Positions 37,503 to 42,869 of a stretch of 64,000 nucleotides of DNA are shown here, one piece after another. A program made the translations under genes and the position numbers. The stretch's first letter is position 1. The number at the start of each line of letters is the position of its first letter. The stretch covers positions 1 to 64,000 of the forward strand of contig NZ_CAGKLC010000007.1 of the NCBI RefSeq assembly GCF_903469665.1. The letters run 5' to 3'. The notes under the pieces were generated by a model, which was given only the letters and a program-made list of their open reading frames with translations, ran no database searches and was not told where the DNA came from. The DNA is from Flavobacterium sp. UGB4466 (GTDB lineage Bacteria > Bacteroidota > Bacteroidia > Flavobacteriales > Flavobacteriaceae).

Positions 37503-38984
37503 CTAGCTGTATTGCGCAATAAACTGTTGCACAACAGTATCCGTATTCTCGTGGCGTTTTTTCTTTTCCAATGCGATAGGCGGAGCGGCTCTTTCAAGGC
37601 AGTCTTTTACGTCGCAGGTTTCGCAGGTGACCCCTACAATTCGTTTGACAAGCGGTTTTCCTTCAATGAACTTGAATTTCTTTTTCATGGTTGGATTGAT
37701 TAAAATACCAACCGAAATACTTCTTATGTTGTCTTTGATGAAAGGATCTTTTGTGGCTGATGAAAAAACCAGGTATTCATTTCCACTATGGACATAACTT
37801 GAGGTCTGAGCATCAAAAAAATGTGGTTTGTTCTGTTTGATTGCTTCGTCTATGGTTTTTACCGAAACCCATCTTCTGCAATAGTGCTCGTTGGTTTCGT
37901 TTGCATGTGGTTCCTGCTGATTGGTGATGTGCAGTTCTTTCTTGATTTGATAAACGTCAGAACCAATTTTATGTGACATTCTTAAAAAGAATAAGTTCTT
38001 CAGATGGAAATCTTTAGGGAGTAAATTAGTTAATCTTTGATAAAAAGATTCCGGCGAAACTTCAAAACTTTCGATCAGCGTTACAAATTCTTCCGGATTT
38101 GGCTTTTCGTTATTTAAAAAGTCATTGATTTTACCTACGATCAATTGTCTCGGTAATAATAAAGCGCCTGCAAAGTAAGAAGCATAGAAATTATGCAATA
38201 CCTGGTCAAAGTTTTCAAACTTGATCCAGCTGAACGTCAGTAAGCGATCGGATAGATTGAGGTAATTGTAAGCAATTTCTTTGGCCAGAATGAAAGCTTT
38301 CTGCGGATCGTCGATTTCTGTTGAAAGTAAGAGGGTTTTGCTTTTTGGGACATAGATAGAGCGCAGATCTTCTAAGGCTTCCTGATCCGTGAAGGCAATT
38401 TCTTTGATAGTGTAGTCAAATTCCTCTTTTAGAATGGCTTCGAGTTCCTTAATAGTGATTTTTGAATCTAAATTAATCTGAAAGGACTTAGAAAAAGCAA
38501 TTACTTTATCTTCCAGATCTTCAAAATAATTACTGTGTGCTTCCTGATACGATCGTAAGGCGGCGAGGAAAAAACTCTCCCTGCTCAGATTGTAATGCTG
38601 GGCAATTTCAATAATGGTGCTGATAAACGCATTGACTTTGGCGGGGGCATTGGCAATAATGTCGATTAGGTCCGCTTCCTGAATGCCAAAAAGCTCCAGA
38701 GGAATCTCTTTTAAAATTCCTGATTTTAAGATTTCTCCAATCGGAGCGAGGTTGTTGTCCAGTTTTAAAGAAACCATTTGGTCGTACGTAACATCCAAAT
38801 GTTCGCATAAAAGCAAAATTTTATCTGTTTTTGGATATTTCTTTCCTTTTTCAATCTCGTTCAAATACGATTTTGAAAGATTGGTCAGTTTAGCCAAACC
38901 AAAAAGAGAGAGGTTTTTCTGAGTGCGAACCTGCTTGAGTTTTAGCCCAAAAATCAGCTTTATATAGTCTTTTTCGATATCCAT
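37503..38984 (-). CDS. RamB-like regulator of the glyoxylate shunt (XRE HTH + short-chain fatty acyl domain)
   Basis: The 493-residue protein has an XRE-type helix-turn-helix at about 12-66 (LKQVRTQKNLSLFGLAKLTNLSKSYLNEIEKGKKYP). A large middle follows that resembles the ImmA/IrrE-like region without the zinc motif HExxH, then a C-terminal short-chain fatty acyl regulator domain with GVTCETCDVKDC. The order matches RamB of Corynebacterium, which represses aceA and aceB. It is divergent from aceB, which supports the same job here. The region between them has a perfect dyad. I used the ATG at 38984; a longer frame from 39020 is possible. Confidence 0.85.
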   Translation of the reverse strand: MDIEKDYIKLIFGLKLKQVRTQKNLSLFGLAKLTNLSKSYLNEIEKGKKYPKTDKILLLCEHLDVTYDQMVSLKLDNNLAPIGEILKSGILKEIPLELFGIQEADLIDIIANAPAKVNAFISTIIEIAQHYNLSRESFFLAALRSYQEAHSNYFEDLEDKVIAFSKSFQINLDSKITIKELEAILKEEFDYTIKEIAFTDQEALEDLRSIYVPKSKTLLLSTEIDDPQKAFILAKEIAYNYLNLSDRLLTFSWIKFENFDQVLHNFYASYFAGALLLPRQLIVGKINDFLNNEKPNPEEFVTLIESFEVSPESFYQRLTNLLPKDFHLKNLFFLRMSHKIGSDVYQIKKELHITNQQEPHANETNEHYCRRWVSVKTIDEAIKQNKPHFFDAQTSSYVHSGNEYLVFSSATKDPFIKDNIRSISVGILINPTMKKKFKFIEGKPLVKRIVGVTCETCDVKDCLERAAPPIALEKKKRHENTDTVVQQFIAQYS

Positions 38985-39018
38985 AATATCAAATGTAAGT
39001 AATCTAAAAATAATCGCC

Positions 39019-39074
39019 AAAAAAGTTTTTTGTAAATTTAGCGAACGTTCGCTTGTTTTGTAAAAAACTTTTTT
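39019..39074. promoter_or_regulatory. 56-bp dyad operator between RamB-like gene and aceB
   Basis: A perfect 14-bp palindrome AGCGAACGTTCGCT (39040-39053) is centred at 39046.5. The flanks AAAAAAGTTTTTT (39019-39031) and AAAAAACTTTTTT (39062-39074) are exact complements about the same centre. In all 23 of 28 base pairs are symmetric. It is the only strong dyad in the region and the best candidate for the regulator's binding site. A -7-like TAATATTG at 39076-39083 sits just beside it. Confidence 0.75.
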
Positions 39075-39181
39075 CTAATATTGTGGTGTAGAAAATATTA
39101 ACGGTCAGATTGTTATAGGAGAAAAGATCTTTTATTAGCAAAAAATGACGAATAATGGAGAACTAATCAAAAGCAACAACG

Positions 39182-40783
39182 ATGAAAAACCAATTAGAGA
39201 TTACCGAGACGGCTATGGAGTTTTTGGCCGAAAAGAAGCTTTCTTATCCAAAGATCTGGACAGAAGAGGCAATTGTTTTTATAACCGAACTGCATCGAAA
39301 ATTCGATTCACAACGAAAATTATTGTTACTGCAACGCGAACAAAAACAAACCGCTTTTGATCAGGGCGTCATGCCGTCTTTTCCTTCCGAAACAAAAACC
39401 GTCAGAGAAAGTAATTGGGTGGCAGGAGAAACTCCAAAAGATTTACAGGATCGTAGAGTTGAGATTACGGGACCGGTTGATCGCAAAATGATTATCAATG
39501 CGTTGAATTCAGGAGCGAAAACTTTTATGGCAGATTTTGAAGACAGTACTTCTCCGACCTGGCAAAATTTAATGGACGGACAAGTGAATTTGATTGATGC
39601 GGTTAACAAGACGATTTCTTATACCGATTTGATTAAGCATAAATCGTATCACCTGAATGAAAAGATTGCGACATTAATCGTGCGTCCACGTGGATTGCAT
39701 TTACCAGAAAAACATCTTTCGATTGATGGAAATGCGGTTTCAGGTTCTTTGGTAGACTTTGGTTTGTATGTTTTTCATAATCATAAGAGACTTTTAGAAA
39801 ATAACTCAGGACCTTATTTTTATATTCCAAAATTGGAACATTATCTGGAAGCGCGCTGGTGGAATACTGTAATTGATTTTACCGAAGATTATTTGAAGTT
39901 AGAAAGAGGAACGATAAAGGTTACTGTTTTAATTGAAACTATAACAGCAAGTTTTCAGCTGGACGAAATTATTTTTGAATTGAAGGATCATATTGTTGGA
40001 TTGAACTGCGGGCGTTGGGATTATATTTTCTCTTACATTAAAAAATTCCGCAAGCATTCAAAGTTTATTGTTCCGGACCGCGATCAGGTCAATATGACTT
40101 CGCCTTTTATGAACGCTTACTCGAATCTGGTAATTCAAAGGTGTCATAAACGAGGTATTCATGCTATCGGAGGGATGGCTGCTCAAATTCCGATTAAAAA
40201 TAATGAGGAGGCAAATGCAATTGCTTTCGCAAAGGTAAAAACCGATAAAGAACGTGAAGTAAAGAATGGTCACGATGGAACGTGGGTAGCGCATCCGGAT
40301 TTGGTTGCTCTGGCTAAAAATGTTTTCGATGCCGGAATGCCAACTCCCAATCAAATTCATGTTAAAAAAGAATATCGCAAAATAACAGAAGCCGATTTGA
40401 TAGAGCCGCCAATTGGAATTATAACAGAAAATGGGGTTCGCAAAAACATTAATGTTGGGGTTTTGTATTTGGCTTCATGGCTAAACGGACAAGGTGCCGC
40501 AGCCTTGCACAATCTGATGGAGGATGCTGCTACGGCCGAGATTTCAAGATCGCAATTGTGGCAGTGGCTTCAGAATAAGGTGACTTTGGATAACGGACAA
40601 ATACTGAATCTGGCGTATTATCATGAGTTGGCTTTAGAGGAATTCAAAAAAATTAAAGACGAGCTGGGAGAGGAAAATTACGAAAACCGTCAATTCCCGT
40701 TAGCGGAGAAAGTTTTGGAAAGACTGGTTGTAAATCCCGATTTCGTTGATTTTTTAACCCTTCCATGTTACAAATATTTATAA
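39182..40783 (+). CDS. aceB: Malate synthase A
   Basis: AceB joins glyoxylate and acetyl-CoA to malate, the second glyoxylate-shunt step. The 533-residue length and the motifs MADFEDSTSPTWQNLMDGQ, TLIVRPRGLHLPEKH, GLNCGRWDYIFSYIKKF (with the family Arg) and RNVTMTSPFM-like DQVNMTSPFMNAYSNLVI fit the A-type enzyme. The ATG at 39182 is preceded by a 128-base leader from the operator. AceA follows 120 bases later and the two are probably one operon under the RamB-like regulator. Confidence 0.96.
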   Translation: MKNQLEITETAMEFLAEKKLSYPKIWTEEAIVFITELHRKFDSQRKLLLLQREQKQTAFDQGVMPSFPSETKTVRESNWVAGETPKDLQDRRVEITGPVDRKMIINALNSGAKTFMADFEDSTSPTWQNLMDGQVNLIDAVNKTISYTDLIKHKSYHLNEKIATLIVRPRGLHLPEKHLSIDGNAVSGSLVDFGLYVFHNHKRLLENNSGPYFYIPKLEHYLEARWWNTVIDFTEDYLKLERGTIKVTVLIETITASFQLDEIIFELKDHIVGLNCGRWDYIFSYIKKFRKHSKFIVPDRDQVNMTSPFMNAYSNLVIQRCHKRGIHAIGGMAAQIPIKNNEEANAIAFAKVKTDKEREVKNGHDGTWVAHPDLVALAKNVFDAGMPTPNQIHVKKEYRKITEADLIEPPIGIITENGVRKNINVGVLYLASWLNGQGAAALHNLMEDAATAEISRSQLWQWLQNKVTLDNGQILNLAYYHELALEEFKKIKDELGEENYENRQFPLAEKVLERLVVNPDFVDFLTLPCYKYL

Positions 40784-40903: not shown

Positions 40904-42184
40904 ATGAAAACAACAGAAGACAGAATTCAGGAATTGATTAACGATTGGATCACAAACCCAAGATGGAAAGGTGTTGAACGTCCGTATACTGCTACTGAGG
41001 TGGTGACGCTTCAGGGCTCTTATCATATTGAGCATTCTATTGCTAAAATGGGGGCGGAGAAATTATGGAGAAAGTTAAAAAGTCAGGATTATGTTGCTGG
41101 TTTAGGTGCTTTAACAGGAAATCAGGCGATTCAGGAAGTCGATGCTGGTTTAGAAGCGATTTATTTGAGTGGCTGGCAAGTGGCTGCCGATGCAAATCTG
41201 GCAGGAGAAATGTATCCTGACCAATCGCTTTATCCGGTGAATAGCGTGCCGATGGTGGTAAAAAAAATTAATAGTGCCTTGTTGAGAGCTGATCAGATTC
41301 AGGTGGTAAACCAGGTTGAAGATAAAAAAGATTATTTGGTTCCGATTGTAGCCGATGCAGAAGCCGGTTTTGGCGGAAATTTAAACGCTTTCGAATTGAT
41401 GAAATCGATGATTGAAGCGGGTGCTTCTGGTGTTCATTTTGAAGATCAGTTGAGTTCTGCTAAAAAATGCGGACATTTAGGCGGAAAAGTTTTGGTGCCT
41501 ACTCAGGAAGCGATTAACAAATTGATCGCAGCTCGTTTGGCTGCTGATGTTATGGGCGTTTCGACATTAATTGTAGCCAGAACAGATGCGGATGCAGCTA
41601 ATTTGCTAACCAGTGATGCTGATCCGAGAGATGCAAAATTTATTACCGGAGAAAAGACCAATGAGGGTTTTTTCTATGTAAACAGCGGAATCGATCAGGG
41701 AATTGCAAGAGGATTAAGTTATGCGCCTTATGCTGATTTGATTTGGATGGAAACCAGTAATCCTGATTTGGTTTATGCGAAGAAGTTTGCGGATGCAATG
41801 AAAAAAGAGTTTCCGGGTAAAATGCTGGCATATAATTGTTCTCCGTCTTTCAACTGGGCTGCTAAATTATCAGTAGCAGAAATGGAAACTTTCAGAGAAG
41901 ATCTGGCGGCTATGGGGTATAAATTTCAGTTCATTACCTTGGCAGGATTCCATGCTTTAAATACCAGTATGTTCGAATTGTCTAAAGCCTATAAAGAACG
42001 TGGTATGGCAGGATATTCTGAATTGCAGGAAAGAGAATTTGCTTTGCAACAAAACGGATTCAGAGCAGTAAAACATCAGGCTTTTGTTGGGACTTCTTAT
42101 TTTGATGCGGTTCAAAATACGGTAACGATAGGAAGGTCTTCCACTACAGCAATGAAACATTCAACAGAGGTTGAGCAGTTTTAA
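40904..42184 (+). CDS. aceA: Isocitrate lyase
   Basis: AceA splits isocitrate into glyoxylate and succinate, opening the glyoxylate shunt. The 426-residue protein shows [22 protein letters not shown] at the start and the catalytic KKCGH motif (Cys189) in [14 protein letters not shown], then [14 protein letters not shown]. Length fits ICL. I used the ATG at 40904, where the family begins, over an upstream frame of 30 unrelated residues. It follows aceB and is regulated presumably by the RamB-like protein. A long inverted repeat follows at 42197. Confidence 0.96.
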
Positions 42185-42293: not shown

Positions 42294-42869
42294 TTACTTT
42301 TTTAAAAGCCTGGCTTTCATTTTGCTGAAAAATTCAGGTGTTACACCAATAAAAGAAGCAATTTGCTTTTGAGGGACTTTATGAACCAATGTGCCGTATT
42401 TAGCACAAAATTTTTCAAAGCGTTCTTCTGCCGTCAGACTTAAATTATCCATTAAGCGTTGTTGGTTGGCAACCAGAGAATTTTCAATTAAAATTCTGAA
42501 AAAACGTTCTAATTTAGGAATGTCGAGATACAATTGCTCCTGATTTTCTTTGGATAAAGAAACGACTTCTGCCTCTTCTAAAACTTCTATAAAAAGTTCT
42601 CCCGGTTTCTGTGAAAAATAGCTGTACATGTCACTCATCCACCAGCCCTGACAAGCAAATGCCAGAACATGCTCGACAATATTATCATTGATGTTGAAGC
42701 TTCTTAGAATTCCCGAATTTACAAAATACGAATGGGTGCAAACTTCGCCGGCATTCAGTAAAATGGTTTTTGTCTTGTAAAAATGGGTTTCCGTTTTGGA
42801 TAAAAAATGAGCCTGCTCTTCAGGAGTCAATGAAATGTGTTTGGCTATATTTTCAAGAATTAATGCCAT
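42294..42869 (-). CDS. Crp/Fnr-family transcriptional regulator
   Basis: The 191-residue protein has a cyclic-nucleotide-binding-like domain (about 10-120), shown by EVCTHSYFVNSGILRSF, and a C-terminal winged-helix region with KQIASFIGVTPEFFSKMKARLLKK. It is short and lacks a clear cyclic-nucleotide Arg-Glu pair and Fnr cysteines, so its ligand is unknown. The start overlaps the stop of the DUF6370 gene by one base. It is the last gene of the purT operon. Confidence 0.85.
   Translation of the reverse strand: MALILENIAKHISLTPEEQAHFLSKTETHFYKTKTILLNAGEVCTHSYFVNSGILRSFNINDNIVEHVLAFACQGWWMSDMYSYFSQKPGELFIEVLEEAEVVSLSKENQEQLYLDIPKLERFFRILIENSLVANQQRLMDNLSLTAEERFEKFCAKYGTLVHKVPQKQIASFIGVTPEFFSKMKARLLKK

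Follow-up and report, generated by a model that had tools for sequence, protein, structure and literature searches.

A putative operator of an ScfR/IsaR-type regulator in the divergent glyoxylate-shunt promoter region of Flavobacterium

RamB of Paracoccus denitrificans Pd1222, a class 2 member of the ScfR family, is needed for expression of the glyoxylate cycle (PMC10370305). The protein is reported to possess an Fe-S cluster and to bind CoA esters (PMC10370305). It forms a tetramer which converts to dimers upon exposure to CoA esters, and in the authors' proposal the tetramer is the repressor and the dimer the activator (PMC10370305). Negative autoregulation is reported for RamB of Corynebacterium glutamicum (PMC4448153). 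Other papers cited in the analysis are PMC10655711, PMC9723704 and PMC6847099. In the literature searched, no paper was found on how Bacteroidota control the glyoxylate shunt or describing the operator considered below, and the portion of a Flavobacterium pangenome paper that was available notes both enzymes of the shunt in some genomes without mention of their regulation.

The locus compared with these systems lies in the window, the whole stretch of 64,000 nucleotides of Flavobacterium DNA that was analyzed. As in class 2 RamB, the regulator gene (37503–38984, minus strand; 493 aa) is divergent from aceB (39182–40783, plus strand), encoding a malate synthase of 533 aa (Pfam PF01274, PF20659, PF20656), and aceA (40904–42184, plus strand), encoding isocitrate lyase (PF00463). 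A gene for a cNMP-binding-domain regulator (42297–42869, minus strand) adjoins aceA. The earlier note described a 56-bp dyad between the regulator gene and aceB, and a repeat search confirmed this description: positions 39019–39046 and 39047–39074 constitute an inverted pair of 28 nt with 23 of 28 positions complementary (82%) and a gap of 0, which places the center at 39046.5. The middle of the dyad is a perfect 14-bp palindrome, AGCGAACGTTCGCT (39040–39053), in which two GCGAA half-sites are inverted about N2. The A/T-rich outer arms include perfect 13-bp segments, AAAAAAGTTTTTT at 39019–39031 and AAAAAACTTTTTT at 39062–39074. In the list of open frames the regulator starts with a TTG at 39020 (505 aa); the conserved start is an ATG at 38984 (493 aa) and the dyad is therefore not coding. 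Six perfect 14-bp palindromes occur in the window. Thus, the length of the palindrome is no argument, conservation is the deciding evidence and it was on conservation that a chance palindrome was rejected. Outside the core, 16 of 21 positions are symmetric, which was matched in ~1 in 10,000 shuffles of both flanks. The core GCGAACGTTCGC has one exact match across the 5.34-Mb genome, and a genomic repeat was rejected for this reason. A second exact GCGAA-N2-TTCGC in the same genome (contig C1) and another site with one mismatch (C17) are both within open frames.

The probable -7 element of aceB, TAATATTG (39076–39083, plus strand), is the -7-like box that the earlier note placed beside the dyad. 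Its assignment was based on the offset of TAnnNTTG in relatives and on the published position of the flavobacterial -7 box, which covers -12 to -5 in the F. johnsoniae and F. psychrophilum papers. With the box so positioned, the start site of aceB is predicted at 39088 and the core center is at -41.5 from it, and at -41.5 or -40.5 across the family. The TAnnNTTG sequence begins 28 or 29 bases to the right of the core center in each of 52 Flavobacterium loci, and at offset 29 in 27 of 34 loci from other Flavobacteriaceae; outside the family only 6 of 31 loci have a box within range. The predicted geometry of the aceB promoter is a trait of the family Flavobacteriaceae. A probable -33 element of aceB, TTG (39053–39055, plus strand), shares its first base with the last base of the core and recurs in relatives: it abuts the core in 48 of 52 Flavobacterium loci, in 27 of 34 loci of other Flavobacteriaceae and in 19 of 31 loci outside the family. 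The -33 motifs of F. johnsoniae are reported to be generally weak. Where TTG is absent, the distance from the core to the -7 box is 28 in all four Flavobacterium loci concerned and 29 in three of seven family loci and in two of four named loci (17 of the 24 named loci, L129–L152, were used); the rest have a distance of 25–27 or no box. As the spacing is kept in only some loci without TTG, the fixed distance is independent of the promoter only in part.

The regulator promoter runs the opposite way out of the same intergenic gap. The -7 element, TACATTTG (38990–38997, minus strand), was recognized from TAnnTTTG sequences which 47 of 55 Flavobacterium loci have 4–5 nt ahead of the ATG (a gap of 4 nt in 31 and of 5 nt in 16) and ends 5 nt ahead of the ATG in the window. 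A possible -33 TTG, 20 nt from this box, at 39018–39020 (minus strand) was noted in the window sequence alone. The predicted start site, 38985, is one base ahead of the ATG, and the short gap between the -7 element and the ATG predicts a regulator mRNA that is leaderless or has a one-base leader. Leaderless transcripts reportedly comprise 5.5% of the mRNAs examined in F. psychrophilum. A simple scan labels 39040–39053 as terminator-like, and the element could be viewed as a transcribed hairpin, an intrinsic terminator or a repeat element. However, transcription from either predicted start site would run away from the dyad and should leave it out of both mRNAs, each of the five Rfam matches in the region scored far under its gathering threshold, and the core occupies one exact place in the genome. 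This reading is barely credible, and a terminator or RNA hairpin was rejected on the position of the dyad and the sub-gathering Rfam matches.

The earlier note took the dyad to be a regulatory site in the divergent glyoxylate-shunt promoter region, a view which absence of the dyad upstream of aceB from related genomes would have contradicted. The core is present upstream of aceB in relatives, in support of this view. Among 150 Flavobacterium genomes sampled, the regulator was found in 56, where the copy of G046 is truncated by a contig end, and these 56 are also the genomes with aceB. The aceB gene is divergent in 53 of these 56 genomes, and GCG[AT]ACGTTCGC is located between the genes in all 53; aceB is elsewhere in the other three (G131, G019 and G147). 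The centered Flavobacterium set consisted of 52 loci and did not include L035, L045 and L047, in which aceB is not beside the regulator. The pattern AGCGNACGTTCGC occurs in 57 of the 150 genomes, 54 of which possess the regulator, and the three Flavobacterium hits with the motif only are within long open frames. Genomes G019 and G147 have the regulator without AGCGNACGTTCGC, yet variants are present upstream of the regulator. The motif-only sites of G034, G084, G148 and G320, and the second site of G057, are in long open frames and are therefore probably due to chance.

The sequence CG[AT]ACGTTCGC also was found upstream of each of eight unlinked or second aceB genes detected in the Flavobacterium genomes searched, namely those of G131, G019, G147 and F. 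gillisiae (L217) and second copies in G142, G113, G036 and G047. The presence of the site at aceB genes away from an intact regulator fits the expectation for control in trans. In G019, a broken second copy of the regulator (L062; G019:C26:226058-226399) adjoins aceB and the intact copy is on another contig. The second, unlinked aceB genes of G142, G113, G036 and G047 (L064–L067) are downstream of a helicase-like gene, which by eye is probably RecG. They have ACGAACGTTCGC upstream and, by eye, another GCGAA-like half-site ~36 bp farther up.

Conservation extends to other Flavobacteriaceae. Among 249 genomes representing 235 genera, 36 have the motif AGCGAACGTTCGC, 37 the regulator and 35 both, a co-occurrence with a Fisher P of ~4e-39 when relatedness is ignored. 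The 34 shared genomes fetched besides that of the window each possess a divergent aceB with the core in between; these loci were chosen for having both motif and regulator, the unselected figure being 35 of 37. The exceptions are G320 with a motif site inside an open frame, G162 with a fragment of the regulator and no aceB match, and G187 with an intact regulator, no aceB match and a variant site. A divergent aceB and the core also were present in 78 of the best 80 loci of a named scan, which is biased to close relatives by this choice, with regulator identity down to 58–63%. The genera include Tenacibaculum, Maribacter, Aquimarina, Kordia, Xanthomarina, Mangrovimonas, Oceanihabitans and Psychroserpens. 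No aceB match was found in the genomes of L153 (G187) and L142 (Xanthomarina spongicola), though the regulator is present, and both loci have only the variant site GCGAACGTTCG, just ahead of the regulator start. Therefore, aceB is not the target in every genome. In several marine genera (L129, L131, L136, L139, L143, L144, L146 and L148–L152), the aceA-like match close to the locus is only 28–31% identical to aceA of the window, suggesting that the type of isocitrate lyase may differ while the operator stays.

In a sample of 296 genomes from the phylum, the regulator was found in 56 and aceB in 44. Upstream DNA was available for 37 of the 40 regulators outside the family (without G399, G450 and G621), and identity to the window regulator was 36–51% in the 14 that were measured. 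When all 5-mer inverted pairs with gaps of 0–12 were compared, GCGAA-N2-TTCGC was the commonest, occurring in 31 of 37 upstream regions; base-shuffled sequence yields 0.0015 exact sites per kb. The centered set outside the family comprised 31 of 35 loci, L210 and L215 being omitted from this set and counted in the 37. The six regulators without the exact palindrome within 400 bp are those of L210, L215, L218, L230, L234 and L240, among which L230 has a palindrome with one mismatch and L234 and L240 the everted form TTCGC-N5-GCGAA. This second arrangement of half-sites is located closer to the regulator start in 12 of 37 loci (L213, L214, L221, L226 and L233–L240).

The neighbor of the regulator outside the family is aceB in many loci, but the palindrome persists when the neighbor is aceA (four loci; G447, G633, G404 and G443) or an AMP-binding acyl-CoA ligase (six loci; G539, G506, G440, G535, G405 and G466); adenylate kinase is the neighbor in G569 and G624. 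The regulator and palindrome of L219, L220, L223, L225, L227 and L228 face the gene for the acyl-CoA ligase, not the glyoxylate shunt. As controls, the DNA upstream of eight aceB genes was inspected, five from genomes with the regulator elsewhere and three from genomes without a regulator match (G450 and G558 were left out). None of the eight has the palindrome, even when one mismatch is allowed. The absence from all five unlinked genes implies that the regulator does not reach aceB via the palindrome in these genomes. Across the phylum sample, the sequences indicate that the palindrome accompanies the regulator, not aceB. These patterns bear on whether the palindrome is a site for another DNA-binding protein and merely neighbors the ScfR gene. 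The cNMP-binding-domain regulator is an example, its gene being next to aceA in the window. That the palindrome stays with the ScfR gene despite changes of neighbor (31 of 37), and is missing from the eight aceB genes outside the family that are away from or without this gene, makes a role for another protein very improbable.

The earlier note treated the 56-bp dyad as one unit, which does not hold beyond Flavobacterium where the core alone is conserved. Within Flavobacterium the outer arms are conserved and their symmetry averages 11.9 of 21 positions in the 52 loci versus 8.3 in shuffles, as might be anticipated if the whole dyad, rather than the 14-bp core, were the functional unit, through bending of the DNA or an additional pair of binding sites. 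However, outer symmetry is at shuffle level in other Flavobacteriaceae (6.9 vs. 7.5 in shuffles) and in the remainder of the phylum sample (7.0 vs. 6.4), and the value of 16 in the window is the highest among the 52 Flavobacterium loci. It is improbable, therefore, that the entire dyad is the functional unit. The 13-bp outer arms are an elaboration in Flavobacterium that is most pronounced in the window genome. The sequence TTTGTAAA is on both flanks of the core in the window; conservation in Flavobacterium is limited to the right-hand TTTTGTA. Further half-sites accompany the core in other groups. In the 34 loci of other Flavobacteriaceae, where 0.026 GCRAA per position is expected, GCRAA occurs in 28 cases at -40 to -42 and in 18 cases at -23/-24, the core copy being at -6. 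The 31 centered loci outside the family again have GCRAA at -23/-24 (12 cases) and TTYGC at +18 to +20 (8 cases). The extra GCRAA half-sites are mostly lost in Flavobacterium (three at -41 and none at -23), which has the A/T-rich outer arms instead. The pitch of 17–18 bp suggests that the half-sites may form a lattice for a higher oligomer.

The regulator has an XRE-type HTH (residues 16–68; HTH_3 in Pfam, E = 5e-11) that is present in 16 of 16 aligned members, an IrrE-like domain and a candidate ScfR C-terminal domain. The match to the ScfRs domain (PF09856) is borderline, with 23.9–24.0 bits compared to a gathering score of 24 and E ≤ 0.001 in 15 of 16 members. Cysteines C369, C454, C457 and C462 are invariant in the 16 sequences, and C369 and C454-X2-C457-X4-C462 also are found in all of another 16 homologues, including 14 from outside the family. 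The four cysteines are candidate 4Fe4S ligands which match the ligand set described for PrpR (PMC6765138), C369 probably being equivalent to Cys363 of PrpR from the order of the motif. They are located in low-confidence parts of the predicted model, which has a mean pLDDT of 70.5 and is low in parts of 77–134, at 355–369 and at 451–477. The top fold matches to this model were four PrpR entries (Foldseek E of 1e-9 to 2.5e-7), with Z of 18.7–19.0 and rmsd of 3.5–4.0 over 258–280 residues by alignment in VIA-align 2. PrpR was not found in the PDB by sequence, even with a profile of the 16 members, and only the fold search detects it. The model thereby predicts that the regulator has a DIII-GAF fold like that of PrpR. 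Prediction of the ligand from the residue equal to Phe155 of PrpR was dropped as the model is weak there. In the HTH (residues 26–49), 16 homologues (two from the family and 14 from outside) are 70% identical to the window protein versus 42% outside the HTH, and the recognition region SYLNEIEKGKKYPK is nearly constant among the homologues compared, as recognition of an invariable DNA word would demand. The window protein is a member of the ScfR/IsaR family of acyl-CoA regulators and is not a RamB equivalog: NCBIfam NF038139 gave 61.2 bits against a cut-off of 700 (E = 7e-17, residues 13–289 only). Thus, the designation RamB-like of the earlier note is apt for membership of the RamB/PrpR family, but not for RamB in the strict sense in view of this score and of a core that is not of the TTTGCAAA type.

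The dyad core very probably is the switch on which the neighboring regulator sits. With a probability of approximately four in five, the element is read as a putative operator of the divergent ScfR/IsaR-type regulator, which would bind the core, use a CoA ester as the signal for switching aceBA and regulate its own gene. This reading follows from the conservation of the site, its co-occurrence with the regulator and its following the regulator rather than aceB across the phylum sample. It also draws on the candidate Fe-S ligands, on the predicted fold and on the sites that Flavobacterium keeps upstream of unlinked aceB genes. A dimer of the XRE-type HTH would grip both GCGAA half-sites of the core. 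As the site is at -41.5 and overlaps the aceB -33 element, the bound regulator could activate or block: through contact with RNA polymerase it may switch aceBA on, or by covering -33 it may keep aceBA off. By analogy with PrpR and Paracoccus RamB, a CoA ester would decide between the two states. Further GCGAA half-sites toward the regulator promoter in related genera make autoregulation likely.

A center at -41.5 is the usual position of class II activators. The location of the center at -41.5 or -40.5 in most family loci speaks against a plain repressor at the same site, which would cover the aceB -33 element on a good carbon source and leave when acyl-CoA rises, like corynebacterial RamB. 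Moreover, expression depends on RamB in Paracoccus, where the genes are in the same order (PMC10370305). Repression is compatible with the one base that the core has in common with the -33 TTG, and with the mainly repressive function of C. glutamicum RamB on targets that include aceA, aceB and its own gene (PMC4448153); mycobacterial RamB also is reported to repress icl1. Plain repression is considered unlikely, if still a serious contender. The repression of aceA and aceB suggested in the earlier note is not supported in that form, as the -41.5 center and the Paracoccus activator of the same gene pair suggest odds of about two to one in favor of activation or a two-state switch, as opposed to plain repression. 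A broader scheme is entertained tentatively and judged less likely than not. The regulators would represent a phylum-wide Bacteroidota branch of IsaR with its own operator code, GCGAA-N2-TTCGC, that is placed at -41.5 in Flavobacteriaceae with a half-site lattice of 17–18 bp extending into the leaderless promoter of the regulator. A change from tetramer to dimer induced by the CoA ester would shift autorepression to class II activation and back, and in other families the module would have been shifted between control of the glyoxylate shunt and of fatty-acid activation.

The predicted ScfR/IsaR operator is well supported: as far as the literature searched shows, the DNA word and the phylum are new, and the kind is ordinary. 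The outcome is a named protein, an exact putative operator, promoter positions and a prediction that can be tested with a short fragment and a gene deletion. The ScfR/IsaR family, described mainly in Actinobacteria and Proteobacteria, is thereby indicated in the acetate metabolism of another phylum, with a different DNA word in Bacteroidota and with fatty-acid metabolism perhaps served as well.

Among known systems, C. glutamicum RamB is of the same protein family and pathway, but recognizes 13-bp motifs at several targets (PMC4448153), in contrast to the single exact place of the window core in its own genome. The Paracoccus regulator is alike in being reversed directly upstream of the genes for malate synthase and isocitrate lyase (PMC10370305). 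The operator reported for Paracoccus consists of two near-identical boxes separated by an 18-bp spacer, whereas the window has one conserved 14-bp palindrome with extra GCRAA at a pitch of ~17–18 bp, and the 80-bp fragment listed in that report lacks a GCGAA-N2-TTCGC palindrome (PMC10370305). PrpR of Mycobacterium tuberculosis, the IsaR prototype, controls the methylcitrate cycle, unlike the aceBA setting here, and has its two 8-mers in direct orientation 1 bp apart, compared to the inverted GCGAA-N2-TTCGC of the window (PMC6765138, PMC3420887). No TTTGCAAA-like site of the RamB/PrpR type was found in the window promoter, where the core is AGCGAACGTTCGCT. PrpR provides the closest fold, is ~17–18% identical to the window regulator in the fold alignment and likewise has C-X2-C-X4-C and a cysteine in the GAF domain, and its footprint, TTTGCAAA plus TTTGCgAA, is near to the TTTGCGAA half-sites of marine Flavobacteriaceae (PMC6765138, PMC3420887).
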